Of a stretch of 64,000 nucleotides of DNA, positions 11,712 through 38,573 are shown one piece after another. How positions within the stretch are numbered: the stretch's first letter is position 1; every line of letters starts with the position of its first letter. The stretch is from assembly GCF_014644295.1 (NCBI RefSeq), contig NZ_BMKK01000003.1, positions 248,001 through 312,000 on the forward strand, given 5' to 3'. The translations under genes were made by a program, and so were the position numbers. The stretch is from Emticicia aquatilis. GTDB taxonomy: Bacteria; Bacteroidota; Bacteroidia; Cytophagales; Spirosomataceae. The notes beneath the pieces are model-generated. The model saw only the letters and a list, made by a program, of their open reading frames with translations, had not been told where the DNA came from and searched no databases.

Positions 11712-12413
11712 TTAGCGTTGAAAGTTTAAAGGTACGTAAAAATGTTTATTCGGGTGTGCTTCTACCGTATCAAATGCAGCCAGCACGGTTTCTGCATTGG
11801 GTATTTTATCAAGCGATTTCAGGTGTTTTCTACTGCTACCAGTTTTAAACAGAATCAAAAAATCTGCATACTGGAAAAGCTCACGTGGTACAGACTGCAA
11901 ACTGTGGTAAGTCATAATCACATTGCATCGAAAGTGTTCACGTTGATTCACGAGCCTTTGAAAACGTTGTGATGCCTTAAACTGCACATAATTGGTGCAA
12001 TCTTCTAAAATTACCGTACAATTCAAACCCCTGCCATCGGCCAGAGCAATGAGATTTTCCATGAAGTATTCGGGATTTGCTTCCGAATCATAGCCACGAA
12101 TAACAGGCACAGAACCTTTGTTGCTTGCTTGCCTTAAAGCCAGTTCCCAATGCTTCAACTGTTCCGATTCTATACCTTTCAGATGCTCCATCCACTTTTG
12201 CGGTTTGGTTGCAAATATCAAAACAGGCAAAGTGCTTGGTTGAATAAACTGCGAAAGTAACAAGGTACTTTTACCCATGCCAGGGCCACCGACAATGATA
12301 ACAAATTTATAGCGGTGTTCTTGGTTGAAAACATCACCCTTCGGTAGAACTTTCGTCAAGTAGTCCCCCGCCGTCGGGGTTTGGTTCAACTGTGGTTTTC
12401 TGCGTAGCTTCAT
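11712..12413 (-). CDS. P-loop ATPase, candidate genome-packaging ATPase (A32-like)
   Basis: 233 residues with a Walker A motif (GGPGMGKST, about 42-50), a hydrophobic strand ending in acidic residues (CTVILEDCTNY) as Walker B, and a later IMTYHSLQSVPRELFQYAD stretch like the sensor region of FtsK/HerA-type ATPases. No membrane segment, unlike the Zot/pI proteins of filamentous phages. The short length fits packaging ATPases of membrane-containing double-jelly-roll viruses (PRD1 P9 type). The ATG at 12413 overlaps the upstream gene by 80 bp; an in-frame TTG at 12359 would cut this to 26 bp. The specific packaging role is inference from length, lack of TM and neighbours. Confidence 0.7.
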   Translation of the reverse strand: MKLRRKPQLNQTPTAGDYLTKVLPKGDVFNQEHRYKFVIIVGGPGMGKSTLLLSQFIQPSTLPVLIFATKPQKWMEHLKGIESEQLKHWELALRQASNKGSVPVIRGYDSEANPEYFMENLIALADGRGLNCTVILEDCTNYVQFKASQRFQRLVNQREHFRCNVIMTYHSLQSVPRELFQYADFLILFKTGSSRKHLKSLDKIPNAETVLAAFDTVEAHPNKHFYVPLNFQR

Positions 12414-13129: not shown

Positions 13130-13612
13130 CTATTTCTGACTAAGTTTTTGTTGGGGTAAATTATCGTAATACATACCCCAAAAACGGATAAATTCAAGCA
13201 TGAATCCACGTTGGTCGGCTGTCATCGAAAAAATACCTTCCAAATTGAGTGGCATTTTAGCGGCTGCAAATTTCTGGTCGATGGTTCGTAGCATATTACC
13301 ACCTTCATCATTGCTTTTCAAGAATGCAGGGGTAAGCTTATCTTGCATTAAAGTTTTGCCAATATCCATCACAACCCCCACAATCTCATTTTTATTGACG
13401 CTTTCAAAGTCAATCGAAAGAATTGGTTCAAGTTTGATTCTTACGTGGGTGGCAAATACCCTCGTAAATTCAACCCCTTGCATAATTTCGGCCAAAGCAT
13501 CTTTCAATGTTACTTCGTTGAGATGCACGAGCGGATGCCCATCGGGGAATGTATGAAAATCTTTAAATCTTGCGGTGGTCAATAGGCCATTATTGGCCGT
13601 TTCTGCGTTCAT
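13130..13612 (-). CDS. 160-residue protein, function unknown
   Basis: Mixed alpha/beta, no membrane segment, no recognised motif. It contains short strands (VRIKLEPILSIDFE) and a helical C-terminus (GFMLEFIRFWGMYYDN). It lies 20 bp upstream of the 258-residue gene and overlaps the preceding gene by 23 bp, so the minus-strand genes form one operon ending with the ATPase. Confidence 0.6.
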   Translation of the reverse strand: MNAETANNGLLTTARFKDFHTFPDGHPLVHLNEVTLKDALAEIMQGVEFTRVFATHVRIKLEPILSIDFESVNKNEIVGVVMDIGKTLMQDKLTPAFLKSNDEGGNMLRTIDQKFAAAKMPLNLEGIFSMTADQRGFMLEFIRFWGMYYDNLPQQKLSQK

Positions 13613-14048
13613 ATTCTGAAATGGTTTTGATATACGAAATTTGTTGTTTTACGTCACTTCGGCCAAAAATACACCCACCAAGCACCCCACAGCCAGTATT
13701 TCTATTGGCTACGTGCAAATCATAAAATTCTGCTTTCAAGCCCGTTGCTCCTGCTTTTTTCTTGAAGTTGGTTTCAGCATCGGCATACCCTTTTTTATAG
13801 GCAAGGTCGGGAAGTAAAGTTTTGGCTTTTTGTAGTTCATCGTTCAAGGCCGTAACCATTTCGGCTTGTTGGATAGCCTTTAATTGCAAAGCTGCATTGT
13901 CTTTGATGATGGCCAATTCACCTGATAAAACTTTCTGTACGAGAAAGTTTGCGAACTGAAAGGAATTTTCACAGCCGAACTGTTGGCGGCCTATCTGCAA
14001 AAATTTTTCGTGGTCAGTATGGCTCACTTTTGCCGTAATTGATACCAT
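13590..14048 (-). CDS. Probable ribbon-helix-helix-like DNA-binding protein with coiled coil
   Basis: 152 residues from ATG 14048; the frame is open to 14135, but the extra N-terminus overlaps the operator-like repeats and looks unnatural. The start, SITAKVSHTDHEKFLQIGRQ, looks like a ribbon-helix-helix strand and helix. An Ala/Leu/Gln-rich helix follows (about 55-95). A Gly/Cys motif, NTGCGVLGGCIFG, occurs near 125. As first gene of the minus operon, beside a repeat-rich divergent promoter, it may be the regulator of both arms (inference). A mobilisation-type accessory protein is an alternative. Confidence 0.55.
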   Translation of the reverse strand: MVSITAKVSHTDHEKFLQIGRQQFGCENSFQFANFLVQKVLSGELAIIKDNAALQLKAIQQAEMVTALNDELQKAKTLLPDLAYKKGYADAETNFKKKAGATGLKAEFYDLHVANRNTGCGVLGGCIFGRSDVKQQISYIKTISEYERRNGQ

Positions 14049-14055
14049 AAAACAG

Positions 14056-14243
14056 GCGGTTGAATCGTGGTTGACTAATGGTTGAATTTTGCCAAAAAAG
14101 TGGCCAAATCGTGGTTGAATCGTGATTGAACGCATTCAACTAACGATGCAAATTTGAGCCAAAAAATTGCCTAAAAACAAGCAAAAAAACGAAAATCAAC
14201 TATTTGCGTACGTGGATGTAAGTAAATGTATGTAGGTGTAAGT
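14056..14243. promoter_or_regulatory. Repeat-rich divergent control region
   Basis: It lies between the minus operon (ATG 14048) and the plus operon (ATG 14330). GGTTGAATCGTG occurs at 14058-14069 and 14113-14124, with partial copies (GTGGTTGACT, ATGGTTGAAT) between and a TTGAAcgcaTTCAA palindrome at 14126-14139. On the other side, two 16-bp direct repeats, GTACGTGGATGTAAGT (14208-14223) and GTATGTAGGTGTAAGT (14228-14243), sit exactly 20 bp apart. Two sets of phased repeats at a divergent start point suggest operators, or an origin with iterons. Confidence 0.6.
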
Positions 14244-25104: not shown

Positions 25105-27123
25105 ATGATAGGACTTACAAAAAAAGTGGCAGTAGTACCACTGCAAAGCGAAGCAAATGCCAATTATAATCCGTTCCCAAATGATACTACTACTAATCCA
25201 ACGGATATTCAAGCTATCAAAGCGGCTTTTTTGGCTGACCAAGATGTTTTAACGGCACTAAAAGGAAGTGACGGCCAACAAGGCCCACAAGGGCCGCAAG
25301 GTAATCAAGGACAGGCAGGACCAGCAGGTGATTCCGTAATAGTGCGAGATACAGACCCGACTGATGCAATCAGCAGTAAGGTTGGAGATTTGTACTTGAA
25401 TGCCACAAGCGGAACACTTTACCAACGTTCGGGTATTACTCAAGCCCAATTTTACGCAGCAGGTTTACAAGGTCTTGTATTGCCCAATTCCATTTGGATT
25501 AGAAAAGGCAACCTAAAGGGGGCAACTGGAGACAAAGGAGATAAAGGGGACGGAATTATTAGTGGCAATGGACACCCGTCAAACGTTGTTCAAACTTTGC
25601 CGCCTGTTGGTACTTTGTACATCAATAAAAATACATTTGGGATGTACGAAAGAAGTGCAACCGAATACATTCCTGGCAATGTACCTGGAGAACTCCCCGA
25701 AGATTATACATTAGGCTACTGGTACGCTTTAGGTTCTTTGAGAGGTACAAACGGAACTAACGGCACTAATGGTGTAAACGGTACTGATGGCATGGATGGC
25801 AATGATGGAGAAAGTGCTGTTAGAATCTTATCTAATTACCAAGTAATTGGCAATTATGATTTGTTACAAAATGATATGGGAAAAACCATTGTCATAATGG
25901 CACAATGTGGGCTTTCAACCATGCAAGAAATAGACAACTATGATGGTTCTATAATTGTAATAAATGACCAAAACACTAATGTCACAATTTTAAATGCAAA
26001 TGGTACACAAAGTGTTATTTGTTCGCAAAAATCGGTTTCAGTGGTTAGTTTTAAAGTTGATGGTTCGGTCTCTGTGTATAGTTTGAAAGGCCAAAACGGC
26101 ACAAAAATTTACACTGTATCTGCTTTACCATCGAACTCGGCAGATGTACAAATTTACCAAAATGGCGATTTGATGTTTAATACAACAACAGGTGTTTTGT
26201 ATGAAAAATCAAATATGACAGCTGCACAATTTTTAATTCAAAATTCACAGCAAGGAACACAGGGAGTTGTTTTAGCCAATGTTGTTTTTCTAACGAAAGG
26301 CAATCTAAAGGGTACAAACGGCAAAGATGCAGTTGAGATTTTAACAGGTGCAGGCACAGTTTATTTGTCTAATGCTCAATTAGGTAAATATTTGGTCATT
26401 CCTGCTGATTCTGCAATAACACAGATTAGTTTTCGAGATACGACAATAGCATCTACAACTACATTTCTTTGTTTAAAAAAGTTGCAAGGTGGTATCAGTT
26501 ATATTCCTACAAATATGGATTTGCCTTCGCAGTTGGCACAGGCAAAGTCGGGCGATTTTTTTGCTATTCAAAATTTTACTGCACCTGTGGATGGGTATTG
26601 GTTTACAAAAACAGACCTAAGAAGTGGAACGAGAATCAAAACAGGAACTGACCATTTGACTTTTACCGATGCCAAAACAGGAGATTTGTATATTAATACA
26701 TCAACTGGTCACTACTGGAAATTTACTTCGGCACAGGATGCGTATTCTCAATCTGGGGTATGGGACGATTTAGGAGCATTAGGGGGAGCAACATCAATGA
26801 CGCAAATTTTGCGTGACCAAGTTTTTACAGTTCCTCTCAACATAAAAAATGTTTTAGTTCATGTATCTATTGATGCTCAATACATCGCTGGCGGTATTCC
26901 TACAATTAACCTTTATTACGATACTTCGGTGTTAGAAATGATGGAAATTTTGAATCCTACCACAACGGCTGTCAATGTGAACATTATCAATGAAGGTTCA
27001 CTTGTTAAAACTTATTCGCTTGATGGCTTTTCAATCACTAAAATTTTTAGAGTAGAAGATGTACAATTATTTGACTTTTTTATGCTTTCAACTGCAAACG
27101 GAACAAATTCAAACCGATTGTAA
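25105..27123 (+). CDS. Collagen-repeat spike-like protein
   Basis: 672 residues. Gly-x-y repeats occur at about 54-76 (GSDGQQGPQGPQGNQG), 145-157 (GATGDKGDKGDG) and 213-236 (GTNGTNGTNGVNGTDG). A repeated module of about 50 residues (DLYLNATSGTLYQRSGI, LYINKNTFGMYERS, DLMFNTTTGVLYEKSN, DLYINTSTGHYWKF) lies between. This builds a long trimeric fibre; PRD1 spike protein P5 also has a collagen-like part (known). The C-terminal 110 residues form the head. No signal peptide or anchor. It is the last gene of the plus arm. Confidence 0.75.
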   Translation: MIGLTKKVAVVPLQSEANANYNPFPNDTTTNPTDIQAIKAAFLADQDVLTALKGSDGQQGPQGPQGNQGQAGPAGDSVIVRDTDPTDAISSKVGDLYLNATSGTLYQRSGITQAQFYAAGLQGLVLPNSIWIRKGNLKGATGDKGDKGDGIISGNGHPSNVVQTLPPVGTLYINKNTFGMYERSATEYIPGNVPGELPEDYTLGYWYALGSLRGTNGTNGTNGVNGTDGMDGNDGESAVRILSNYQVIGNYDLLQNDMGKTIVIMAQCGLSTMQEIDNYDGSIIVINDQNTNVTILNANGTQSVICSQKSVSVVSFKVDGSVSVYSLKGQNGTKIYTVSALPSNSADVQIYQNGDLMFNTTTGVLYEKSNMTAAQFLIQNSQQGTQGVVLANVVFLTKGNLKGTNGKDAVEILTGAGTVYLSNAQLGKYLVIPADSAITQISFRDTTIASTTTFLCLKKLQGGISYIPTNMDLPSQLAQAKSGDFFAIQNFTAPVDGYWFTKTDLRSGTRIKTGTDHLTFTDAKTGDLYINTSTGHYWKFTSAQDAYSQSGVWDDLGALGGATSMTQILRDQVFTVPLNIKNVLVHVSIDAQYIAGGIPTINLYYDTSVLEMMEILNPTTTAVNVNIINEGSLVKTYSLDGFSITKIFRVEDVQLFDFFMLSTANGTNSNRL

Positions 27124-27127
27124 TCAT

Positions 27128-27204
27128 TTTGATACCAAAATTTTAGTGTTGCCGAGCTGATGGACGACGGAGCAGCTCTACTGAAGATTTTTTTTGATAC
27201 CAAA
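27128..27204 (+). promoter_or_regulatory. Two TTTGATACCAAA sites after the spike gene
   Basis: TTTGATACCAAA occurs at 27128-27139 and 27193-27204, both followed by ATTT. Between them is a GC-rich stretch. The motif is a near-palindrome (ideal TTTGGTACCAAA) and recurs three times near 33.7-33.8 kb, so it looks like a protein-binding site of the element. Confidence 0.55.
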
Positions 27205-27262
27205 ATTTAACAAAATTTTTCTTCAGATTTTATTTTCTTTAAAATTTTGACACCCAAAAGCA

Positions 27263-27297
27263 AAGCCGCCTACCATATTGATTTGGTAGGCGGTCTT
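27263..27297. terminator. Bidirectional hairpin terminator
   Basis: GCCGCCTACC (27265-27274) pairs with GGTAGGCGGT (27285-27294), with one mismatch at the stem base. It separates the plus-strand structural arm from the minus-strand STAND gene. Confidence 0.75.
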
Positions 27298-27315
27298 ACT
27301 TTATCCGATGAAATG

Positions 27316-30300
27316 TTATGAGATTTTATTGGATTTAACTATATATTTACCATATAGTAGTAATATAAATATTCCCCAACTCTCTGTACATACTTTAAGT
27401 TGCTCTTTCCATTTAGTAATAATTTTAATATTAAAACTAAATTGATAATTTTCTTCATCGTCTTTAGATTGGGGGAAAATATTATTACTTACATTAAGCA
27501 TCGCTTTGAAATACTCTTGCTCTTCCTCACTTTGAATATAGCTTTCTTCATCAAACGGAAACATTTTTAACCAATAGGATAATGACTCTACTACCGTTTG
27601 AAAGGACTGCTGCAATTCTAAACTTAATTTATTCAAATGTTGTTGTAACATATTTTTATCAACATCCGAAAGTTCAATCTCATCAAATAACCTCAAGTCA
27701 TAGAAATGGTCAACCAAGAAAAGTAATTTTCCATAAGCCTCGGTTGCATTATGGATTTTATTAAAGTCAGGATATATTTTCGCCCAAGTATCTATATTGA
27801 ATCTTTTACAAACTTCATCATCAATAGGCTGTGGAAGTGAATTGATGATAGATAATTCTTCAAAGATTTTATCGTTTATTTTATAAAGATTGAACTCATT
27901 CCAATTATTGTTTAATGTTTTATTTTGAACTGTTTGAATAAAGTAAAATTTTGGAAACCATATTTTTAACATTAAGTACTTTAAACTTGTGTATGCTGGA
28001 TTATCAATAGCTTGATGCAAAATATTATAAGCTTCTTTAAGCCCCAAAAGTGAATAGATAGGGCTTTGGCCTTCAATTATAAATATTGGTTTGCCCTCTG
28101 TAATTTTATGATTAAAATATTTTATGGTAAAGTAATCAGACTTAGAAGCTTGTTTGAACTCTTTCAGTATTCTGTTTTCAAAATCAGACTTTAAATTCAA
28201 TAATCTGTTCAATGAATGGTCTGCTTTTTTGTTGTTCAAGAAATCTTTCCAAATAATAGCTGTAGTATAGATGGATTTTGTCACAATTTTTGAATTATGA
28301 AAAGGGTCAATATTTCCCAAAACAATTTTATATTGAATATTATACTCGGTAAGACTATCAATTGCATCATATAGATTGATTTGTGATAATCTCTCTATGT
28401 TTTCATTGTGAATATGTTCTTTTTCTGTTTGTAATTTTATTCTTGAATACAGGGTTTGAGCTGATTGACTAATAAAAGTTTCAATTTTACTTTTAAAATT
28501 TGAATACTTATCAAAGAAGAGTTTATATTTAGATTTTAGTTTATTATTTATCACTTCCTCTCCACGCATTTGATTTTTAATAATATTATTGTCATTATAT
28601 ATTCCTAAAGAATCAGTAATGGATTTTGGCTGCATAACTTCTTCAGGAAACTTAAATAAAGCATTGTTCATAACGGGAATTACAGGCTTATAAGTTTTAC
28701 TGTCTGCAAAAAGCTTTGCAAACGAATTGTTAAATTCATTTAGCTTTTCTTTTATTAGACTTTCCCAATGATTTAAGAGAGCTAAGTACTCTTTCCAATC
28801 TTCAGGTCTATTGGGGTAATTATAAAGTTTTATTATACAAGCATTAATATTAACCCATTCTTCTAATGGTAAATTGTCAATGGGTATCGTTTTATGTGTA
28901 TCGTCATAATCCACTGCCAATGTTTGTAAGCGATGACCATAGCCTTGTGAGCAGTATTTTTTCTTATCTGGAAGAGCTGTTCTGATTATATCTAAAATAT
29001 TTACTACAAAATCATTGCTTGCTCTTAATTCCTCATTCTTGATAATATCAATAATGTAGTAAACTGTGATTTCTTCTCCTTGAAAGTTAATATGTACTAT
29101 GTCAAACTCTTCTTTTATTTTCTTTATAAATTGTTCAATATTTTTCTTTCTTATGTTATCCAATTGAGAAGAGTAATAGAACATTCCCAACATCAATTTA
29201 GATAGACTCAGACTATCCATAATTTGAAAGGCTTTTTCAAATTTTTCTTCAGCAAAAGTTTCAATATCGTTTTTTTCATTAGGTATATTTTTCAACCAAA
29301 ATAACGCTTCACCAAATGATTTCCATTCAAATATTGTCAAGGGAGTTTTATTCGGAAAATGAAGTTTATTAATTACTATAGTTGCTAAATTGAAAACATT
29401 TTCCTTTGCAGAAACTTTCTTATTAATTTCATCTATTTTTTCTATAATAATATCATCAACCTGAAGAATATCTAATATTCTTTTTTTATCAAAATTACTT
29501 GAAAACATAAAATCAATAAAAAACATCCAAGCTGCACCACAAGTTTTTCTACATTCATCGAATAGCCCACGATTAGTTTCAACATATTTTTTTGTTCCAA
29601 GCCATATAAAAGCTTTTACTATTGATGAGTATGTCGCCCAATTTTCTACAGAAATATATTCATTTAATTTTTGAATAAATGTGTCTGATTTTAGAATTTC
29701 AATATTGAACAATTGTAGAAGGAACAAATACAAATCTTGTTCACTTAATAATGGGATGACTTTATAAGCGTAATCTTCTTTATGATTAATAAATTCATCA
29801 AACAAAATTTCGGTCAACTTTTGAGAGCGGACAATGTGTAACCCCTGAATGTACTTTTTGTCCAAAGACTTTTTAATCAGATATTCATTTTCTAATTTTT
29901 CAATTATATACTGATAATTTATATTAGAATTTAGTTTTGAAGCATCAATCTTTGCTCCAAATGAATCAGCAAGACTTACAACTCTTAAAAACTCAATTTG
30001 TTGGGCTACATTTGGGCTATTTTCTGACTGTATTTGCTGTATCTGTTGTTTTAATTTATTAACTAAGGAATCTCCTTGTGTAATTGAATAAACAAATTCT
30101 AACATAGGAGCATTATTACCTAATTGAATCCATGCTTGTTCAAAATCAGTAAAGTGGTTTACTTTATTTTTTTTATTTAGGTTTAAGTAAACAGTCTTTG
30201 CTTCATCTTTCGTAAGAGATAGTTCTATTTCATTATACTCAAATTCAATGCCCACTGCGGATGCTCTGTACCAATCCTCATTCCTAATTGCAATGAGAAA

Positions 30301-31356
30301 CTTGATATGTTTTAAATGAGCTGATTCTTTTATTACTTTAAGCCATTCTGTAGTATTCGGTGTTACATTGATTACAAAAACTGTAGGAATCTCTAATTTC
30401 TTACTTATAGAGGCAATGGATTGGATAGACTGTTGAGTGACTATAGGGTCTTGTTGAATATTGAGTTCAAAAGAAAACCAATCATTTATGTACCTATGTA
30501 CATAACTGTATAACAGTGCAGTTTTTCCTTGTCCAGATGCACCTTTTAGCATTAAAACATTATTCGTTCGTAACTCTTCATTAATTTTTTCTAAATACTT
30601 TTCTCTACTAATATCAAGACCTAACATAATGTGTTCATATCTCGTTAATGTTGCTTTGTAAAATTCTTTTTCTAATAATTGGAGATTTACATCGTTACTT
30701 GAAATTTTATGTAATGGTTTTAGAACTACACCAAATTGATTGTGTATGGCGATTCGCTCACTTAAATACCTTGCAAAGTCCTGAACTTTATTATAGAAAT
30801 CTTTTTTCGTAATTGGTTGTTGTTTTTCAGCAATGAACTGTAACCAATACAATAGAAATCCGATGGTTGGTATCGGGTCAACTTCAGTGAAGCTGGCTTT
30901 CATCAGTTGTTCAACTTCGTTTGCGATTAGCTCTTCATTGATTTCGACAAACTGTATTTTATTCTTAATTAATTTCCAATCATCTTGGGTTATTCTGTGT
31001 TTTTCTAAAATAGGTTTTTCTGTTTCACTAATTATATTCTGATTTTTATTCCAGTTTTTAAGCTTTTCACTTATCTTCCCATACGACACAAGTATTGGTG
31101 TTGCCTCTCGGTAGTTATTCAAAAACCTTTTAATGAATGAGGTTTTTTTTGTTAAAAGAATATCCGATAATCTTATAGGGTCTTCTATGTTTTTTAACTG
31201 TATAGCATACAATAGTTGTCCATTGTTATCTAAAATATCCAAATCTTCCTCTCCCTCTAACCTATAAATGAAATCATTAGAAATGGTGGATAAGATATAG
31301 TGCAATGAATATAAGAATTGGGTTCTATACCCCTTAAGAGCTGATATAGCTGACAT
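27316..31356 (-). CDS. Avs-like defence ATPase: N-terminal nuclease fold, STAND NTPase, long repeat C-terminus
   Basis: 1346 residues. The N-terminus (about 30-60) has RLEGEEDLDILDNNGQ and YAIQLKN, a D...QxK pattern as in DUF4297/Cap4-type PD-(D/E)XK nucleases. A P-loop (LMLKGASGQGKTALL, about 270-284) and a later FLIAIRNEDW strand mark a STAND-type NTPase. The remaining 850 or so residues are helical and probably form a sensor superhelix. Avs proteins sense phage proteins and switch on the effector, here probably DNA cleavage. Very AT-rich, unlike the virion genes. The exact Avs type cannot be set by eye. Confidence 0.75.
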   Translation of the reverse strand: MSAISALKGYRTQFLYSLHYILSTISNDFIYRLEGEEDLDILDNNGQLLYAIQLKNIEDPIRLSDILLTKKTSFIKRFLNNYREATPILVSYGKISEKLKNWNKNQNIISETEKPILEKHRITQDDWKLIKNKIQFVEINEELIANEVEQLMKASFTEVDPIPTIGFLLYWLQFIAEKQQPITKKDFYNKVQDFARYLSERIAIHNQFGVVLKPLHKISSNDVNLQLLEKEFYKATLTRYEHIMLGLDISREKYLEKINEELRTNNVLMLKGASGQGKTALLYSYVHRYINDWFSFELNIQQDPIVTQQSIQSIASISKKLEIPTVFVINVTPNTTEWLKVIKESAHLKHIKFLIAIRNEDWYRASAVGIEFEYNEIELSLTKDEAKTVYLNLNKKNKVNHFTDFEQAWIQLGNNAPMLEFVYSITQGDSLVNKLKQQIQQIQSENSPNVAQQIEFLRVVSLADSFGAKIDASKLNSNINYQYIIEKLENEYLIKKSLDKKYIQGLHIVRSQKLTEILFDEFINHKEDYAYKVIPLLSEQDLYLFLLQLFNIEILKSDTFIQKLNEYISVENWATYSSIVKAFIWLGTKKYVETNRGLFDECRKTCGAAWMFFIDFMFSSNFDKKRILDILQVDDIIIEKIDEINKKVSAKENVFNLATIVINKLHFPNKTPLTIFEWKSFGEALFWLKNIPNEKNDIETFAEEKFEKAFQIMDSLSLSKLMLGMFYYSSQLDNIRKKNIEQFIKKIKEEFDIVHINFQGEEITVYYIIDIIKNEELRASNDFVVNILDIIRTALPDKKKYCSQGYGHRLQTLAVDYDDTHKTIPIDNLPLEEWVNINACIIKLYNYPNRPEDWKEYLALLNHWESLIKEKLNEFNNSFAKLFADSKTYKPVIPVMNNALFKFPEEVMQPKSITDSLGIYNDNNIIKNQMRGEEVINNKLKSKYKLFFDKYSNFKSKIETFISQSAQTLYSRIKLQTEKEHIHNENIERLSQINLYDAIDSLTEYNIQYKIVLGNIDPFHNSKIVTKSIYTTAIIWKDFLNNKKADHSLNRLLNLKSDFENRILKEFKQASKSDYFTIKYFNHKITEGKPIFIIEGQSPIYSLLGLKEAYNILHQAIDNPAYTSLKYLMLKIWFPKFYFIQTVQNKTLNNNWNEFNLYKINDKIFEELSIINSLPQPIDDEVCKRFNIDTWAKIYPDFNKIHNATEAYGKLLFLVDHFYDLRLFDEIELSDVDKNMLQQHLNKLSLELQQSFQTVVESLSYWLKMFPFDEESYIQSEEEQEYFKAMLNVSNNIFPQSKDDEENYQFSFNIKIITKWKEQLKVCTESWGIFILLLYGKYIVKSNKIS

Positions 31357-31531
31357 TGGATTAAATTTGTTTATTATAATTGCGGAATATATTCACGAAT
31401 TAACTCTATTGTTATTCCAATTGCAACCATTATTGTTAAATTGTAGAGTTATCTTGAGTGTAGAAATAACCTCGAAAGGGTGTGTGCTTTAGTATGTTGC
31501 AGCAGGTATAGTTCCTAATCAGTGTAATTAA

Positions 31532-31577
31532 CATTTATGGGGTAATAAGATTCTAAAAACTTATTGCCCCATAAATG
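31532..31577 (-). terminator. Hairpin after the zincin-like gene
   Basis: 18-bp arms starting CATTTATGGGG and mirrored by CCCCATAAATG, with 17 of 18 positions paired, 9 bp after the stop at 31586. It lacks a U-run. The remaining gap to the STAND gene start (31356) holds no gene. Confidence 0.6.
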
Positions 31578-31585
31578 TATATTGT

Positions 31586-32494
31586 TTATCCAATAAAATA
31601 CCCCGACTTAAATTCTTTCATAAAGTCTTGAAATATTTTATCTACTTCACGCACTTCATTTTCTGTGGGATAAATCAATGGGCTGTATTTGGCTTGTGAT
31701 AATAGTTTATTTTGAATGTTCATCGAACGAAGTTTAAGCGAAACCCAAGCTTCAAACCATCGTGCAAATAATTCATTCCTACGAATCAAATAATCGCTTT
31801 CAATTCCATTAGCCATCATAAATTTAGCCAATCGGGTATAATAGGCCGAAGGGGTTTTGTTGGGTACTTTCCAAATGATTTTTTCAAGTAAATCGTTGGT
31901 AATAACCCTTAGTCTTTGCCTGTCGTTGCAAGGCATTCTACTTCGAGATACTGAACGACCACCAGTTAGGGCAAATACTTGTGGATGTGGTGAGACGTAT
32001 TCACCGCCTACATAATCAAGAAAGTGGCCGTATTCGTGAGCAAATGACCCCATTCCACCAGTAGCCACAAACCGAGCCAATTTACTTTCATCGCCACGAT
32101 GGTATCGGGTAACGTTGATTATTTTAGTTTGTGATTCGTAGTGAGCCAAAGCAGAACCCGCCCCCCTTGCTCCAAATGAAACCGATAAAAGCCCAAGACC
32201 TAAGAAATAATCAATATTCATTAGTTTATTGAGGTCATAAAGGCTGATGATTAATCCATTCACATAATTGAATCTATCTTCGTTAGTTACCCAGTTACCG
32301 AAACCAATTTCAGCAATTCCAAATTTGGTACGTAACAAATCGGGGTTTGAGCCATAAGAAAGTGACTTTGGCAAGTCAAGATTCGGGCGAATGAATTTTG
32401 AATAATCGAGGAAACCGTTTTCGCTCCAATATTTGTCAGCACGGCTGCCAATGGCAATTTTAGGTGAATTTAGGATTACTTTACTTCTTTGCAT
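31586..32494 (-). CDS. Zincin-like protein, LPD1-type candidate
   Basis: 302 residues from ATG 32494. This start overlaps the end of the preceding 49-residue gene by 14 bp; the longer frame from 32572 would overlap it by 92. The motif SFAHEYGHFLDYVGG gives HExxHxxxD, and RRNELFARWFEAWV gives a downstream Glu. This matches the large polyvalent-protein-associated zincin domain (LPD1) that phages and conjugative elements carry, usually inside much larger proteins. Here it stands alone. Role in element biology unknown. Confidence 0.7.
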   Translation of the reverse strand: MQRSKVILNSPKIAIGSRADKYWSENGFLDYSKFIRPNLDLPKSLSYGSNPDLLRTKFGIAEIGFGNWVTNEDRFNYVNGLIISLYDLNKLMNIDYFLGLGLLSVSFGARGAGSALAHYESQTKIINVTRYHRGDESKLARFVATGGMGSFAHEYGHFLDYVGGEYVSPHPQVFALTGGRSVSRSRMPCNDRQRLRVITNDLLEKIIWKVPNKTPSAYYTRLAKFMMANGIESDYLIRRNELFARWFEAWVSLKLRSMNIQNKLLSQAKYSPLIYPTENEVREVDKIFQDFMKEFKSGYFIG

Positions 32495-32630
32495 TTTTGA
32501 GGAAATTTTGTGCTTGTTTTTCGATGGCTTTAAGATTGTTGTTAGCGGTTGTTTTGTTGTTTTCTCCGCCAATTAGCTTTTCATTATCGGGCAATTTGGC
32601 TTTCGTTGGTGTTAGTTTTCTAACTTTCAT
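32481..32630 (-). CDS. 49-residue basic protein, function unknown
   Basis: MKVRKLTPTKAKLPDNEKL starts it and a Lys/Asn-rich tail ends it. Too short for most gene callers. Its end overlaps the ATG of the zincin-like gene by 14 bp, typical coupling in this element. The upstream side directly faces the 44-bp repeat array, so the palindromes may control this gene pair. Confidence 0.5.
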   Translation of the reverse strand: MKVRKLTPTKAKLPDNEKLIGGENNKTTANNNLKAIEKQAQNFLKNAKK

Positions 32631-32701
32631 TTTGCTTTTTGGTTTTGGTGAAAAAATATTTAACTGTGAAAAAATGCTTATTAATGCTCCAGGTCAATGC
32701 A

Positions 32702-32938
32702 CATTTTGAAAGTGTGATTTTTATTAATTATAGCTGCATCGAGTATTCACACTTAATGTGATTTTGGCTAAATTCAGATTAGCCGGCCATTCACACTTGG
32801 TGTGATTTTTTACCATTCAGCTATCGGCGACTGCTCACATTTGGTGTGAATAAAACCTATTTAATTGGAACAGTTGCTTCACACTTGGTGTGAATTTAGG
32901 CTTGTCAATTCGCTGAGCTTTCGCACACTTAGGCGTTT
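32702..32938. repeat. Palindrome array with 44-bp period
   Basis: TTCACACTTGGTGTGAA-like 17-mers start at 32746, 32790, 32834 and 32878, exactly 44 bp apart. The one at 32878 is a perfect palindrome around TTG; the others have one to three changes. Half-conserved copies stand at 32702 (right half GTGTGAT) and 32922 (left half CACACTT), again 44 bp away. The 27-bp stretches between are different; the first contains a hairpin (GGCTAA/TTAGCC). The array overlaps the methyltransferase 3' end. Not a usual CRISPR repeat: too short and no cas genes. Confidence 0.8.
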
Positions 32939-33682
32939 TCTACAAGTATTGTTAGCCGATTTCTGCTTACCTTGTAAAGCCCTACCACATCCACAGGGGC
33001 AAGTTTTAGTGTTAAAAATTGTACGACTCTGTGATTCGGTAGCGTTCTTGATAGCACGTGCAATCACATTTGAAACGCCTAAATGCACTCCGTTTCCAAC
33101 TGCTTTGTACTTTGCGGCTTTATGGAATGATTCAAGCAACGGAGGACCTGAAAAGCCTTGAAGCTTACAAAAATCATCAAAGTTTCTGCGTTCGGCTTTT
33201 CTCCCTTCGCAAGCCAACGCACAATTTTGTTTTTGGCCGTTGTATTTTCGTACTGGTGGGAGTTCCAGAAGTAAGCCTTCTTTGCTACCGAATTGGAATG
33301 TTCGATTTCGATTTTGTGAAAAACCAATGTCAAAGGGGTTAAGGTTGAATCGTTGAACGTGGTAGCCATCCACGATAATATCGGGTACTTGTGGCACGTT
33401 TTCGAGTAAAAACCACTTTGGTTGGCATTCTATTACGATGCGAGCAAATTGTAAAAACAATTCGATTGATTCGGTATTTTGGTTTCTGCTACGGTTTACT
33501 ATGCTAAATCCTTGACAGGGCGAACCACCTATGATGCCATCAAATTTGCCCAAAATACCATTAAAATCTTGTATCGGCTGATTAGTGATAATATCGCCAG
33601 CACTAACCACACAAAAACCGTTTTTCTTGAATCCATCATCAAGCATCCCGATACCTGTAAATGTTGAAAGAACTAATTGCAT
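32879..33682 (-). CDS. C5 cytosine DNA methyltransferase with C-terminal Cys cluster
   Basis: 267 residues. C5 motifs in order: STFTGIGMLDDGF (I), GGSPCQGFS (IV, catalytic Cys), LLENVPQ (VI), QNRNRTF (VIII) and AVGNGVHLGVS (X). The target-recognition part between VIII and X is short. A tail, TCPCGCGRALQGKQKS with a later TCRKR, looks like a small zinc ribbon, unusual for the family. No restriction endonuclease gene is adjacent, so it appears orphan, probably protecting element DNA. Recognition site unknown. The last codons lie inside the repeat array. Confidence 0.9.
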   Translation of the reverse strand: MQLVLSTFTGIGMLDDGFKKNGFCVVSAGDIITNQPIQDFNGILGKFDGIIGGSPCQGFSIVNRSRNQNTESIELFLQFARIVIECQPKWFLLENVPQVPDIIVDGYHVQRFNLNPFDIGFSQNRNRTFQFGSKEGLLLELPPVRKYNGQKQNCALACEGRKAERRNFDDFCKLQGFSGPPLLESFHKAAKYKAVGNGVHLGVSNVIARAIKNATESQSRTIFNTKTCPCGCGRALQGKQKSANNTCRKRLSVRKLSELTSLNSHQV

Positions 33683-33714
33683 GGCTTTAAATTTAGATGA
33701 AACACATTTTATAA

Positions 33715-33844
33715 TTTGTTACCAAAATTCACAAAGCTTTCAATAATCCAACCCTTGCAAATGCGATTTTTGGTAACAAATTTGATTTATATTTTTTTTG
33801 GCCGTCAATGCTCCGAGCGTCAGCGTTTTTATTTTGGTATCAAA
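33715..33844. promoter_or_regulatory. Cluster of three TTTGnTACCAAA sites
   Basis: TTTGTTACCAAA at 33715-33726 (plus) and the same motif inverted at 33769-33780 and 33833-33844 (TTTGGTAACAAA, TTTGGTATCAAA). The first lies 33 bp before the methyltransferase start, the last reaches into the end of the 87-residue gene. Spacings are 54 and 64 bp; the pair near 27.1 kb is 65 bp apart. Confidence 0.55.
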
Positions 33845-34103
33845 CAATGAATTGGCTAAACAAAGAATTGAAACCCGATAGCATTTGCGATTCTATCTTT
33901 TCGACTTCTTCAAGGTCTGAAATCACGCTATAAATGGAATCGAACTCGTGTTCTAAACATTTTACGTAGGTAAATTCAAAGTGAGGTATTGGCTTATTTT
34001 TACTTTGAACTTGTGTAATTTTCAAGCAACAATCCTCTGATATTTGCTTGAGTAAAACCGTATCAGTTTGGTTTTTATCGCTGGCAATCAAGATATAGTT
34101 CAT
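33840..34103 (-). CDS. 87-residue protein, function unknown
   Basis: Last gene of a chain of seven overlapping minus-strand genes. It is mixed alpha/beta with an acidic C-terminal helix (YSVISDLEEVEKIESQML). No motif or membrane segment. It overlaps the upstream gene by 4 bp. The stop lies in the last TTTGnTACCAAA site. Confidence 0.55.
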   Translation of the reverse strand: MNYILIASDKNQTDTVLLKQISEDCCLKITQVQSKNKPIPHFEFTYVKCLEHEFDSIYSVISDLEEVEKIESQMLSGFNSLFSQFIV

Positions 34104-34390
34104 AATTCGGATAGATTTTGTTGAAATTCTTTGAATGATTCAATCGTACGTTGGTACTTTAAAACTTTGTTCTCCAGTTGACGGATTTTGGTTTTTGCTT
34201 CATTAAGTTCAATTGCTTTTTGGTCTCGTTCGGCTTCATACTTCATCTTAAACCATTGGCGTTCTTTCAAGCCTTTAATCACAATCGAACTTCCAGTAAG
34301 TAGATTGTTTTCTCTACCGATTTCGTTCATTATGTCGTTGGTTTCTTGGTCAATTTCCCTAATCTTGACCGTCTCAAAGTTTTTGTTCAT
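34100..34390 (-). CDS. 96-residue coiled-coil protein
   Basis: Begins with an acidic helix (VKIREIDQETNDIMNEIG), then a Lys/Glu coiled coil (about 45-90, AKTIRQLENKVLKYQRT-like heptads). Possible oligomeric regulator or structural partner. Four-base overlap with the next gene and 17 with the previous one. Confidence 0.55.
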   Translation of the reverse strand: MNKNFETVKIREIDQETNDIMNEIGRENNLLTGSSIVIKGLKERQWFKMKYEAERDQKAIELNEAKTKIRQLENKVLKYQRTIESFKEFQQNLSEL

Positions 34391-34631
34391 TTGATTCTTT
34401 TATTTTAGGTTTTACCGATACTCCAAATATTTTAATGAACCATCTATTTAATTGCTCCCACTCCTTTTCATCTAATGGATAGGCTTTTACAAAAACTACC
34501 TCTTGAATCAAGACCAAAGAAAAAGCAGATTTACGTCGAAATTCGGCAATGGCTTTTTCTAATGTTTGAGCATCAACAAAAACTCGAAATCGACCGCCAT
34601 TGTGGCGATAAACTATTTTATATTGATTCAT
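34374..34631 (-). CDS. 85-residue protein, function unknown
   Basis: Start ATG 34631 was chosen because it overlaps the preceding stop by 14 bp; the longer frame from 34691 would overlap by 74. A strand-rich N-terminus (YKIVYRHNGGRFRVFVDAQ) and a helix (LEKAIAEFRRK) suggest a small alpha/beta domain. No family recognised. Confidence 0.55.
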   Translation of the reverse strand: MNQYKIVYRHNGGRFRVFVDAQTLEKAIAEFRRKSAFSLVLIQEVVFVKAYPLDEKEWEQLNRWFIKIFGVSVKPKIKESNEQKL

Positions 34632-34833
34632 TTTTGCTTGTTTTAGGGTGAGTTTTGAATAAATAGTCATAGTACATATTAAGGCCAGCAATCAAAACGT
34701 CATGCTGTGTATGTGGCAATCCTTTGGCTCTACAAATCAACTGCGTATGTTCAAGTGTTTCTTTCTGAATCTGTGTAGCCTTAATCTCAATCCTGTGTTC
34801 GGATTTAGCAGAATACTTGGTTTTGCGTCCCAT
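34618..34833 (-). CDS. 71-residue possible DNA-binding protein
   Basis: MGRKTKYSAKSEHRIEIKAT begins with a basic arm. A strand (RIEIKATQIQKE) and two helices (LEHTQLICRAKG; HDVLIAGLNMYYDYLF) give a ribbon-helix-helix-like layout, so it may be a small regulator or mobilisation accessory. Call is tentative. Confidence 0.5.
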   Translation of the reverse strand: MGRKTKYSAKSEHRIEIKATQIQKETLEHTQLICRAKGLPHTQHDVLIAGLNMYYDYLFKTHPKTSKNESI

Positions 34834-35167
34834 CTTGAATCTGAATATTACAATTGTGATTAACTAAACACTGGTCAAGCTTTGAAAGGATGCTTTGTAG
34901 CAAGGAGTTTATTTTTTTGCCCAATAAATCTTTTGCAATGATTCGAGCGGTTGAAAGTGGCATTTCAAGGCTGTGTAATTTTGCTTCATTTTTGAAATGC
35001 CAAACGTATGATTTTTGGTTTAAAATATGGAAATAGTCACCTAAAACCATTTGGCTATCACTCACATAATCCAAGTTTGTATCCTGTAAATAGATATGTA
35101 TCATGTGGCAATAGTGATATAATTGCGAAAATTCAGCTACCGAAATTTTTATTGTTATCTTTTTCAT
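34805..35167 (-). CDS. 120-residue protein, function unknown
   Basis: Starts in a 4-base overlap with the previous gene. Helical; contains His/Tyr-rich FSQLYHYCHMIHIYLQ and a long helix near IIAKDLLGKKINSLLQSIL. No membrane segment. Overlaps the next gene by 29 bp. Confidence 0.5.
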   Translation of the reverse strand: MKKITIKISVAEFSQLYHYCHMIHIYLQDTNLDYVSDSQMVLGDYFHILNQKSYVWHFKNEAKLHSLEMPLSTARIIAKDLLGKKINSLLQSILSKLDQCLVNHNCNIQIQDGTQNQVFC

Positions 35168-35409
35168 TTTGAGTTCTGAGAAATGTAATAAAGAATAGTG
35201 TCATAAGCTTCTTTCAATTCAGTATTGGTTTTGTACTTACAAAACGTTATTTGAATGGTTTCGGAAATGTCCAAATCATCAAAGAAATTAGAATAAATAG
35301 CGATGTAAATTGCTTTAGTATTCATTTTCAAGGCTGCCCGATTTTTACCTTTCATGTCGTTGAGCATATAAATTTGCTCAAGCAATCGCATTAAAAGTTT
35401 CTGTTCCAT
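35164..35409 (-). CDS. 81-residue protein, function unknown
   Basis: A helical small protein (LLMRLLEQIYMLNDMKGKNR) with an acidic strand (DLDISETIQITFCKY) and a C-terminal helix. No family recognised. It begins one base after the stop of the 206-residue gene. Confidence 0.5.
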   Translation of the reverse strand: MEQKLLMRLLEQIYMLNDMKGKNRAALKMNTKAIYIAIYSNFFDDLDISETIQITFCKYKTNTELKEAYDTILYYISQNSK

Positions 35410-35410
35410 A

Positions 35411-36031
35411 TTATCGCCTAATCATGTGGCCGAGATTTGAATTAACCAAATTTTCAATGTTTTTAACCTCATTGGCTTCATTCACGGAGTTCAACGGATG
35501 AACTTTTAGGTAAGCATAATAAAAGCCTTGAACACGACCGTATGGCACACCTTTGGTTTTCAAGCCTTCGCAATAGTTATCAAGTTCGGCTTGGTTTTTA
35601 AACTGACCTTTGATTTTGAATAAATCAGGGCTAAATGATTTTGCAGTTATAGGCTTTACTTCGGTATAGTTTTGGCCTTTGTGAATTTTGGTATAGACTT
35701 GTTGTAGATAATTTTTTAAGTCGAACATTGTTTCTGCAATACCATGAAGTTTGTAACCTTGACAATGAAGCTCTACCAACATTTCATCGTTTTCTTTTCC
35801 TGCTTTTCCATGTTTATAGAAAACCATATACTGACTTTTTGACAGGTATCCGTTTGCAATAATTCGACTGATATAGCCAACTAAACACTTTTCTTTGTCC
35901 AGTGGCTCGTCATGGTTTTTATGTTTTGAATAACCATCCAAAACTTCGACTTTTCCATCATTTAGATAGATTTCGTGTCTATAAGTTGCGTTTTCACGGT
36001 CTCCTACGAATTTGAATTTGCGTTCTGACAT
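35411..36031 (-). CDS. 206-residue protein, first gene of the small-gene chain
   Basis: Alpha/beta, Lys- and Tyr-rich, with no recognised domain. KFKFVGDRENATYRHEIYLN forms an N-terminal beta start; a helical C-terminal half contains AELDNYCEGLKTKG. It heads seven overlapping minus-strand genes (36031 to 33840), arranged like an early operon of a phage or conjugative element. A replication role is possible but unproven. Confidence 0.55.
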   Translation of the reverse strand: MSERKFKFVGDRENATYRHEIYLNDGKVEVLDGYSKHKNHDEPLDKEKCLVGYISRIIANGYLSKSQYMVFYKHGKAGKENDEMLVELHCQGYKLHGIAETMFDLKNYLQQVYTKIHKGQNYTEVKPITAKSFSPDLFKIKGQFKNQAELDNYCEGLKTKGVPYGRVQGFYYAYLKVHPLNSVNEANEVKNIENLVNSNLGHMIRR

Positions 36032-36563
36032 TTTTGTTAAATTTTTTGAGTTCGTTAAAAATTTGGGTTCTCCTAACGTTACAGAAACGTTCTATGTACT
36101 ATTGAGACAGGTACGTTAGTAACGATTCTACGAAGTAGAATTTTTGGTACTTCGACCCTAACCGAATAACATGGTAGGGGGGCGGAAAAAAAAGCCTAAA
36201 AATTAGGCAAAAAGAAATCCGCTCGCACTTCTTCGAGGGGTGCGACATTTGGGGTGTGGGTGCTGAGAATTGGCCATAGCTAAGCAACCACAGGGATAAT
36301 ATAAATACTTGATTCTAAGGGGCTTGCGAAGTAATACGCATAAGGAAAAATTAAAAAAAGGAGTAAAAAATACTAAAAAAACTTGCTTTTTTGCTAAGAA
36401 TTTATTAGTTATTAAGGCGGAATACTAAGGAATTGGCACATAAAGAAAACAGTTAGGTATAGTCAATAATTAAATGCTCCAGTGTGGCCAAATAGGCTTG
36501 GTTAAGAATGTAACCGATACATAAATTCGTGCTTTCTAATTACAACCCAAAAAATTAACTAAA
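36032..36563. other. 532-bp non-coding region with hairpins
   Basis: No supported gene. It holds a perfect hairpin ATTCTAC-gaa-GTAGAAT (36125-36141), ACGTTAC/GTAACG-type palindromes at about 36076-36124, and the terminator at 36194-36208. It has a run of seven G followed by eight A, and long A-rich stretches. The layout could be an origin, a packaging site or a small RNA. Minus-strand frame 36099-36287 is Pro/Ser/Phe-rich and not convincing. Confidence 0.5.
36183..36208 (-). terminator. Rho-independent terminator (minus strand)
   Basis: Read on the minus strand: GCCTAA-TTT-TTAGGC followed by eight T. It would end the transcript that starts at the 122-residue gene (37322) and passes the two small genes. 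Confidence 0.75.
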
Positions 36564-36677
36564 TTAACAGTCAATATGATAATCGTCGTAGTGCCTGTTT
36601 TTCGACTTTGCACGTCCTAAGGCGTACATAAAGCCAGCAACAAAAAAACACGCTCCGACAATAAAAATCTTTTTCAT
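36564..36677 (-). CDS. 37-residue single-span membrane protein
   Basis: MKKIFIVGACFFVAGFMYAL starts with a basic pair and a hydrophobic helix (about 4-20), then a basic and His/Asp-rich tail (GRAKSKNRHYDDYHIDC). Too short for usual gene callers. It starts 13 bp after the stop of the 56-residue gene on the same strand. Confidence 0.5.
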   Translation of the reverse strand: MKKIFIVGACFFVAGFMYALGRAKSKNRHYDDYHIDC

Positions 36678-36690
36678 GTTATTTAGGGTT

Positions 36691-36861
36691 TCAATCGCCA
36701 GTTTTTACAAAAACTTTCTCAATCTGATACCTTCCCAATGGTGCTTTCTGTAAAATATCCTGCTCTGCATCTTGGTAGGTGTCATACTTACGTTCATTCA
36801 AGAAAAATGCTCGTTTTTCTTCGTCCCATCTTGAAATAAAAAAAACAACTTTCATATACAT
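36691..36861 (-). CDS. 56-residue protein, function unknown
   Basis: MYMKVVFFISRWDEEKRAFF is followed by a Tyr/Asp-rich helix and a strand (GRYQIEKVFVKTGD). Start could be ATG 36861 or 36855. The strand-helix-strand pattern suggests a compact domain. Between it and the 122-residue gene lies a GGGGGC-aaa-GCCCCC hairpin (36909-36923). Confidence 0.5.
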   Translation of the reverse strand: MYMKVVFFISRWDEEKRAFFLNERKYDTYQDAEQDILQKAPLGRYQIEKVFVKTGD

Positions 36862-36953
36862 TGAGGTAAAAGGGGATTTTTATATTTTTCTGAATTTAAA
36901 AGGATGGTGGGGGCAAAGCCCCCGAATCCATGTCTAATAAATCCACACAACTT

Positions 36954-37322
36954 TTATGAAAAATCTTGTTCGGTTAAAGTCCTTGATTTATAAGGCTCAA
37001 AACCTGCTGTAATATTGTCAATCTCTCTTTGTAAGTTATTTTCTCCGAAAACCTCACACCACATTTCTTGTATCCTTCGATTCAAAAAATTATACTCATA
37101 TTTTTCGGCTGTAACCTTACCTTTCAGAATCGAATAAATTCTATCTCGTGTTTTTGGAAACTTGCCTGTTTCCAATTCCTTCATCTTTTTCCAGTCAAAA
37201 ATGAATTTCGACTTTTTGACTTCAAACTTTCTCGAATCAACTGATTCGTAAAGTGCCAGTAAAATTGGAATTTCAAGCCGTAACATAAATTTTTTATCGG
37301 TTAGATGATGAAATTTCAACAA
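36954..37322 (-). CDS. 122-residue protein, divergent to the regulator
   Basis: Helical and Lys/Arg/Glu-rich (VKKSKFIFDWKKMKELETGK, YEYNFLNRRIQEMWCEVFG). No family recognised. It is transcribed away from the HTH gene across a 103-bp AT-rich divergent region, the typical place of an element's switch. It could be the antagonist or a replication or excision factor (inference). Confidence 0.55.
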   Translation of the reverse strand: MLKFHHLTDKKFMLRLEIPILLALYESVDSRKFEVKKSKFIFDWKKMKELETGKFPKTRDRIYSILKGKVTAEKYEYNFLNRRIQEMWCEVFGENNLQREIDNITAGFEPYKSRTLTEQDFS

Positions 37323-37425
37323 TATACTTTAATTTCGTTTCGTTATCGTTTTGATTTCGATTCAAAGTAAAATAAATTTAAAGTAAATTACAAATAAAAT
37401 TAGAAAAATTTTAATTTATTGTATT

Positions 37426-37821
37426 ATGGTACATCACGGACAAAGCATTTTCAGTATTGCAAAGACAAAAGGTTTTAATAAATCAAGTCTTGCCAGAATG
37501 TTATCAAAAACTCCCCAAGCAGTTGATTATGACGTAAAAAGGGCAGTTTTAGATAAAGAAGTATTAGAATCTTACGCTAAGATTTTAGGAGTGCCATCAG
37601 AAGAATTTCAAAAGAATTTAAAAGAAATTTCAAGTAACGAAGATAAGTCTTTGCAAGAAAGATATTTAGATGTTCTTGAAGAAAATAGAAAATTATGGAG
37701 AGTTCTAATGAGTAATGGCTTAACAATTGATTTGGGAAAGCTTGATGTTATTAGATTGCCACGTGTTTCAAGCCTATATTTTTTTGGCTTTACTAACATT
37801 TCTAATAACATTTGTGAGTAA
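37426..37821 (+). CDS. HTH-type regulator of the element
   Basis: 131 residues. The N-terminal 65 residues look like an XRE/Cro-type helix-turn-helix (FSIAKTKGFNKSSLARMLSK, then AVDYDVKRAVLDKEVLESYA). A coiled segment follows (LQERYLDVLEENRKLWRVL). The last 25 residues are hydrophobic and uneven. It is the rightmost element gene, divergent from the 122-residue gene, fitting a maintenance repressor. Target sites may be the repeats described elsewhere; unproven. Confidence 0.65.
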   Translation: MVHHGQSIFSIAKTKGFNKSSLARMLSKTPQAVDYDVKRAVLDKEVLESYAKILGVPSEEFQKNLKEISSNEDKSLQERYLDVLEENRKLWRVLMSNGLTIDLGKLDVIRLPRVSSLYFFGFTNISNNICE

Positions 37822-37864
37822 TTTACTTACAAGTGGCTGATTATTAAGGTTTTGGGCATATTAA

Positions 37865-37878
37865 TTGTTAATGACTTG
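37865..37878 (+). repeat. Candidate right attachment repeat (attR)
   Basis: TTGTTAATGACTTG, identical to 4012-4025, 43 bp after the HTH gene and 102 bp before the host DUF1573 gene. The block between the repeats is about 33.9 kb. Confidence 0.55.
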
Positions 37879-37980
37879 TTAAAAATTTGGGATATAAATA
37901 TATAATGATGTTTATTTGTATTAACAATATGCTTTGCTAATAACAAAATCTTATTTCAAAACTTAAAATCAATTAAATCA

Positions 37981-38406
37981 ATGAAAAAATTAATTTCAAC
38001 AATTGCAGTTGTTTTCGCTTTTGTAGCATCAATCCAAGCACAAGGAGTATTGAAATTCAATAAAGAAGTGCATGATTTCGGAAAAATTTCTGAAGGCCCA
38101 TTGGCAACTTATAACTTTGAAGTAACAAATACAGGTACAGCTCCAGTTGTTATCTCAAATGCACAAGCATCTTGCGGTTGTACAACTCCTGAGTTCTCGA
38201 AAGACGCTATCATGCCAGGTGGAAAATCAGTAATCAAAGTAGGATATAACACTTCTGGCCGTCCAGGTGCTTTTACAAAAACTATCACTGTATCAAGCAA
38301 CGCTGAAAACTCATCAGTTATCTTAACTATCAAAGGTGAAGTAACTTCTGCACCTGCTCCAGCAGCAGCACCAGCGGCATCGCCAAATGCTAAGAAAAAA
38401 TCATAA
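37981..38406 (+). CDS. Secreted DUF1573-family protein
   Basis: 141 residues: a signal peptide (ISTIAVVFAFVASIQAQG) and one ASPM/DUF1573-like Ig domain (FNKEVHDFGKISEGP, NFEVTNTGTAPVVISNAQ, CGCTTPEF). The C-terminus is an Ala/Pro-rich tail (about 122-136). Proteins of this type are common exported proteins in Bacteroidota; exact role unknown. Monocistronic, with a terminator after it. Directly right of the element edge. Confidence 0.85.
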   Translation: MKKLISTIAVVFAFVASIQAQGVLKFNKEVHDFGKISEGPLATYNFEVTNTGTAPVVISNAQASCGCTTPEFSKDAIMPGGKSVIKVGYNTSGRPGAFTKTITVSSNAENSSVILTIKGEVTSAPAPAAAPAASPNAKKKS

Positions 38407-38430
38407 TCTGAAAAAGATTAGTTTTTATAC

Positions 38431-38464
38431 AAGAGCCTCTCGCAAAACTGCGGGAGGCTCTTTT
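38431..38464 (+). terminator. Rho-independent terminator
   Basis: AAGAGCCTC-CGC and GCG-GAGGCTCTT stem with a six-base loop and a following TTTT, 24 bp after the DUF1573 gene. Confidence 0.8.
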
Positions 38465-38573
38465 GTTGGTGATTAAAAAAGTTTTAGCTACGCAACCATT
38501 CCGAAAACATCAGCGTACTTGTTAAGTCTTTTAGACCTTCCCCTTTTTTAATTACTAAACAAAACCGTAAAAA

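Follow-up and report, generated by a model that had tools for sequence, protein, structure and literature searches.

The window, by which we mean the whole 64,000-nucleotide stretch of DNA analysed here, carries an integrated element. Within that element a regular array of short palindromes lies in the 248-bp gap between a methyltransferase ORF and a 49-residue ORF, the third-longest gap among the 44 listed genes. The features are as follows:

4012–37878: integrated element of about 33.9 kb, with the 14-bp direct repeat TTGTTAATGACTTG at its ends; it has an integrase, and relatives show an empty site
31586–32572, minus strand: LPD1-domain protein with an HEYGH motif (Pfam PF18796), next after the 49-residue ORF
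32481–32630, minus strand: 49-residue ORF, with relatives (40–43%) before the LPD1 gene in loci L089, L108, L114, L142 and L143
32631–32745: A+T-rich stretch (100-bp segments from 32601, 32651 and 32701 have 70, 72 and 66% AT)
32702–32718: end unit 0 in the register listing, with the right half-site GTGTGA (32712–32717) and a T-run only
32747–32761: palindrome unit 1, TCACACTTAATGTGA, 5/6 arm positions paired
32791–32805: palindrome unit 2, TCACACTTGGTGTGA, 6/6
32835–32849: palindrome unit 3, TCACATTTGGTGTGA, 5/6, with T-G on the plus strand
32879–32893: palindrome unit 4, TCACACTTGGTGTGA, 6/6, with the methyltransferase stop codon inside
32922–32938: end unit 5, left half CACACTT (32924) only, within the methyltransferase coding sequence
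32879–33682, minus strand: C5-cytosine DNA methyltransferase (Pfam PF00145); the array lies downstream in its direction of transcription

The A+T-rich stretch separates the array from the 49-residue ORF; other 100-bp segments between 32.0 and 33.6 kb have 52–70% AT. The best phage match of the methyltransferase is to Pseudoalteromonas corticovirus GXT1010 (39% over 95%). Many Bacteroidota contigs (L108–L187) encode LPD1 proteins with the HEYGH region, which could mark such elements; the functions of domains LPD1 to LPD40 are called elusive in PMC5512222.

Four 15-bp palindromes of the form TCACA-N5-TGTGA start at 32747, 32791, 32835 and 32879, in steps of exactly 44 bp, and a repeat-family search returned four 20-bp copies at 32746, 32790, 32834 and 32878 (start-to-start 44, 44 and 44), in agreement with the exact period given in a preliminary description of this DNA. 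Alignment of the four units yields TCACA-Y-TT-RR-TGTGA, with columns T2–A6, T8, T9 and T12–A16 invariant in 4/4; its 15-bp core, TCACAC-TTG-GTGTGA, is an inverted repeat of the 6-3-6 type. Units 2 and 4 are perfect inverted repeats and units 1 and 3 pair at 5/6 arm positions in the alignment reading, which scores unit 3 in this way where the folding count takes its T-G as a pair on the plus strand. The four units had been described as 17-bp palindromes; their number stands, but the outer base pair of the 17-bp version is present in unit 4 only and the common core is 15 bp. The two half-conserved end units are as described, with GTGTGA at 32712 and CACACTT at 32924; both are in the register of the array and each keeps its inward-facing half. 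Each of the five 44-bp intervals accordingly has GTGTGA (ATGTGA for unit 1) at one end and a TCACAC-like sequence at the other. The 27-bp spacers are indeed unrelated, with a mean pairwise identity of 0.38 (n=5, range 0.26–0.48) that is due in part to a common T/A-rich start, and the reported overlap with the 3' end of the methyltransferase gene is borne out by the position of its stop codon within unit 4. The period had also been equated with about four helical turns; at 10.5 bp per turn it amounts to 4.19 turns, so that helical phasing is approximate only. Each 44-bp step rotates the site by about 69 degrees and six units make about one full rotation. The sites would therefore lie off one common face of the DNA and describe a gentle superhelix, which suits wrapping.

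In 100 dinucleotide shuffles of the window, an equally spaced four-unit array arose in 0/100 and a three-unit array in 1/100, whereas single sites with up to three mismatches showed no excess (24 matches in the window versus 27.1 in shuffles). The improbable feature is the arrangement of the sites, not the number of single sites. The alternative 22-bp arrangement TGTGA-N7-TCACA is absent from the window and its one-mismatch matches number 1 against 2.2 expected. The host genome (6,747,492 bases) holds ten TCACA-N5-TGTGA sites, four in the array and six scattered singles, compared with four for a reversed control pattern; a host regulon was rejected on this comparison of six sites outside the array with four in the control. 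A looser asymmetric one-mismatch pattern matched the genome 16 times, three of them in the array (control 5); a TTACACAG-type sequence accounts for four of the 16, on two other contigs. On the plus strand of the element, 4/5 copies of GTGTGA and 3/4 of TCACAC fall within the array, where composition predicts 6.7 and 6.0 element-wide. No further copy of the site within two mismatches exists in the element outside the array, and hence none at the divergent pair of genes for 131-aa and 122-aa proteins (37322–37426). This concentration in the array leads us to expect that the predicted binder is specific to the element.

The limits of the element are drawn from its repeats and from empty sites in relatives. 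Copies of TTGTTAATGACTTG lie at 4012 and 37865, and the gene at 4208–5293 encodes an integrase-type protein that has Arm and SAM-like domains. In all ten other genomes of the genus the right flank match starts at 37863–37865, and in six of the ten the left flank matches up to 4019–4025 (in one via a separate short piece); in the remaining four the left flank stops about 200 bp short or is absent from a short locus. Together, the repeat and these flank matches place the element at about 4012–37878. The array had been proposed as a possible recombination site; as the site for the element's integration this is rejected, since the direct repeat lies elsewhere, at 4012 and 37865. The LPD1 gene of the element is found in 1/11 genomes of the genus, the window's own. 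The element also encodes a 233-aa P-loop protein (11712–12413) that is packaging ATPase-like, endolysin-type genes, and small proteins that show membrane segments by eye; these genes and the gene-sharing relatives suggest that it is tailless-phage-like. The Pfam or PHROGs scans, which covered 38 of the 44 listed ORFs, identified no capsid protein.

Several other parts of the element deserve mention in their own right. A 1346-aa protein (27316–31356) has an nSTAND_NTPase5 match below the Pfam cut-off, of the STAND-type NTPases, and could be defence cargo; its PADLOC match is marginal (mad8, E 0.0009). Two genes for NA37 nucleoid-associated proteins (PF04245) flank a 400-aa gene that has no Pfam family (6959–10267). 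Between the divergent genes for the 131-aa protein (HTH-like by eye) and the 122-aa protein lie A+T-rich repeats with a period of about 11 bp (37364–37411), perhaps a lysogeny switch. The longest gap in the gene list, 659 bp without a listed gene (36032–36690), has no Rfam match.

Relatives identified by the P-loop protein, methyltransferase, LPD1 alignment and the 206-aa protein were distant only. LPD1 relatives occur in 9/390 genomes of the order and P-loop relatives in 8/222 genomes of the family, in both cases including the window's own. LPD1 searches gave 28 viral and 46 genome loci, the methyltransferase search 60 viral loci by short conserved matches and the search with the 206-aa protein one locus; the P-loop protein had no match among viral contigs. 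We scanned 96 sequences (1.54 Mb) for arrays, namely the window and 95 loci around LPD1, P-loop or 206-aa protein relatives, a set that includes repeats of the same contig (e.g. L108/L142, L085/L161, L084/L163) and weak LPD1 similarities (e.g. L132–L141, L182–L187). A palindromic, evenly spaced array with free spacers was found in the window and in 0/95 of the loci around relatives. The preliminary description had looked to the 44-bp spacing in homologous elements, and the related elements show no such array at all. On the sequences compared, conservation of this gene neighbourhood does not extend to the array, a finding that does not in itself disprove a function.

Weaker three-unit matches came from L111, L121, L123–L125, L173 and L179, with periods that are multiples of three except in L179, which has a 44-bp period, G+C-rich repeats and a palindrome score of 0.57; one match in L173 equals the score of the window (0.86) but lies inside a 27-bp tandem array. 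An initial scan of 97 loci that included those of the methyltransferase returned the window's array and some tandem-like repeats. One viral contig found by methyltransferase similarity, L064, has a palindromic unit ACCACTTATAGTGGT in 81-bp steps (about 12169–12345); it was rejected as an array of the free-spacer kind, its intervals being 0.69–0.77 alike. A specific double palindrome was present in 1/222 genomes of the family, the window's own, and a looser one in 2/395 genomes of the class, the second of which (L191) is by reading a 21-bp tandem repeat. The double palindrome also matched three viral contigs. L188 has three similar palindromes in 36–37-bp steps directly upstream of an ORF. L189 (5159–5245) and L190 (849–936) have TGTGA/TCACA half-site iterons with a 22–23-bp period inside initiator-like ORFs; that of L189 has MarR_2, HTH_36 and other winged-helix Pfam matches above cut-off and DnaT below it, and in L190 a winged-helix-like ORF adjoins a DnaB-like ORF, both by eye.

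Some relatives encode a rolling-circle module. An HUH-type Rep is present in L089, L108, L114, L142, L143 and, in a more distant form, L118, where L108 and L142 are one contig and L142 and L143 are titled Runella; the proteins of L108, L142, L143 and the viral contig L114 share 67–68% identity with that of L089, which matches PF23343 above cut-off. The array is absent from all six loci. Conversely, the L089 Rep has no match in the window, and a PF23343 search of the window's own genome gave one match just under cut-off, on another contig. The slot between the methyltransferase and the 49-residue ORF holds four small ORFs in L089 and, by reading, a gene-length stretch in L142 and almost nothing in L143. 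Since relatives carry other small genes or almost nothing there, the slot is variable. At the methyltransferase stop in L089 (15430–15466) lies one 12-bp inverted repeat with inner ends GTGTGA and TCACAC, which could be either chance or a remnant of an array site.

Direct observations are the palindromes, their exact period with unrelated spacers between, the clustering of the site at one locus and the surrounding mobile element. Equal spacing despite differing spacers suggests that the distance between the palindromes matters rather than the sequence between them, and this pattern is a hallmark of protein complexes assembled on DNA. The array most likely serves as a set of sites at which one of the element's own proteins docks, for copying or for gene control. 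We infer protein binding, the origin of the binder in the element and cooperativity from these features, and envision a scenario in which one dimeric, element-encoded protein binds the four full and two half sites, dimers at fixed 44-bp steps join into one nucleoprotein complex, and this complex bends or wraps about 220 bp. Our firmest prediction, common to the two leading readings of a replication origin and an operator, is that the array works at the DNA level, binds protein cooperatively and is specific to the element. These correspond to options of the preliminary description, which had proposed a replication or partition site and a cooperative operator; they fit best and both stay candidates. 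One targeted search of the literature on phage palindromic operators with 44-bp spacing returned nothing relevant; PMC7145576 and PMC8263062 served as further sources.

On thin evidence, we slightly favor an origin over an operator. That the array is an iteron-type replication origin, which replaces the rolling-circle module of some relatives, is a tentative reading whose chances we put somewhat below even; the A+T-rich stretch beside the array is a candidate opening site. The thin case for it comes from the single locus, the variable gene slot, an array without the Rep of the relatives, the initiator-like iterons of viral contigs and the lack of a minus strand promoter consensus. Repressors more often have sites at their own promoter too, which we also count for an origin. 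Like an iteron origin, the array has several phased repeats, with exact 44-bp steps between its four full sites and two half-sites, but Pfam or PHROGs scans of 38 of the 44 listed element ORFs revealed no cognate initiator, and we do not class the array as a member of that group. For the 206-residue protein encoded upstream, a model with pLDDT 71 gave no match to a solved or viral structure at E <= 0.001. No DnaA box (TTATCCACA, up to one mismatch) lies near the array except one partly formed by unit 3, and GC skew has no turning point there. Known iterons are mostly about 22 bp apart, which counts against an origin. The missing initiator match, the absence of a skew turn, the 44-bp step and the relatives that have neither Rep nor array make up a case against an origin that is likewise thin. 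The last of these are Spirosoma/Fibrella-type (L081–L088, in the stretches fetched), and because of them the apparent exchange of Rep for array rests on few cases.

Somewhat unlikely, though a serious competitor, is a cooperative operator, in which a regulator encoded by the element binds all four sites and, by looping or wrapping, governs transcription of the 49-residue/LPD1 unit or of the methyltransferase. The array lies in a long gap, where A+T-rich DNA separates it from the gene start downstream, and the three palindromes of L188 are similarly placed just upstream of an ORF. The C-terminal domain of the phage 186 CI repressor forms a 14-mer wheel and the protein loops DNA in vitro (PMC8053113), which offers an analogy. 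A scan with a Bacteroidota-type promoter consensus gave eight matches in 32300–33900, about twice the element density of 2.2 per kb, so that promoters nearby are possible. However, all eight are on the plus strand (among them 32639–32668 and 32874–32904) and point away from the 49-residue gene, and neither of two scans found a minus strand promoter consensus in the gap. An operator also sits poorly with the lack of a second copy of the site (up to two mismatches) in the element, the divergent 131-aa/122-aa pair included, and with related elements that have the same downstream genes without such an array. The 131-aa ORF (37426–37821), HTH-like by eye with no Pfam family above cut-off, is only a candidate repressor.

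Two further protein-binding readings have smaller chances. We regard as unlikely that the array is the cis-site of an undescribed replication, segregation or packaging system of tailless-phage-like Bacteroidota elements, in which a 44-bp lattice of dimers with free spacers would wrap about 220 bp and the rolling-circle module would have been replaced. A shade less probable still is a role in partition, as a centromere, or in packaging, as a start site, with a ribbon-helix-helix protein as one conceivable binder. A single locus with several dimer sites at even intervals would suit such a function, and in the relative L088 an RHH_1 protein is encoded beside the P-loop gene, but the window ORF at the corresponding place (13590–14135) does not score as RHH, and a 71-aa ORF that looks RHH-like by eye is modelled as two helices (pTM 0.31). 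Moreover, none of the element ORFs scanned matched a ParA-like or small-terminase family at cut-off, and the TerS_N match of the 131-aa protein (E 0.13) falls below it.

An RNA-level element of regularly spaced hairpins in a transcript is very improbable. Both strands have more stable folds than shuffled sequence (z −3.6 and −3.8), as is expected of palindromes anyway, but the stem has only 6 bp (about −6 kcal/mol), the end units have no hairpin, the four units show no compensatory change, and variation in the inner arm breaks pairing once per strand (unit 1 on the plus strand, unit 3 on the minus). With no Rfam match in 27000–38500, the earlier suggestion of a small RNA cassette loses its footing. 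CRISPR repeats are about 21 bp or more with conserved ends, and the CRISPR-like resemblance noted at the outset, a repeat-spacer layout with equal-length unrelated spacers, is hardly credible as an identity given repeats of 15–17 bp, both outer ones half lost, and, in the proposed comparison of spacers with phage genomes, a 321-base region unmatched in phage or plasmid records (E up to 1), the two of five spacers tested as exact 22-mers absent from viral contigs, and a best other match in the own genome at E 0.16.

To our knowledge, little is established about how such integrated phage-like elements in Bacteroidota replicate. The array measures 237 bp at a single locus and is thus a small, cloneable target for finding the protein and its function. 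As an operator, the array would form a 44-bp lattice of unusual rigidity. As an origin, it would exemplify the replacement of replication modules that PMC5894146 describes in general terms for double jelly-roll viruses, provided that the element belongs with them.

The array can be set beside four known systems. It resembles a CRISPR array in its short repeats and equal, unrelated spacers, and differs from one in that the repeat is too short, the ends are degenerate and no spacer match was found. Unlike the array, the RepA_N iterons of the PLE satellite are closer, with 14–16 bp between them, and inverted repeats there converge on poly-A; that satellite has a known RepA, whereas none was found in the element. 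The operators of phage 186 CI have neither a matching repressor nor a second site cluster as counterparts in the element, but they too are sites served by a multi-dimer wheel able to loop DNA (PMC8053113), as the proposed binder might here. A lambda-type origin differs from the array in its spacing, which is 22–23 bp as measured in L189 and L190 against 44 bp, and in that the array lies outside any initiator gene, with no initiator recognised. Yet the iterons to which dimers of lambda O bind are inverted repeats next to an A+T-rich region (PMC5043065), and the array likewise has inverted-repeat sites, for a predicted dimer, beside a stretch of 66–72% AT, while the viral contigs that share its half-sites, L189 and L190, have their iterons in initiator-like ORFs.
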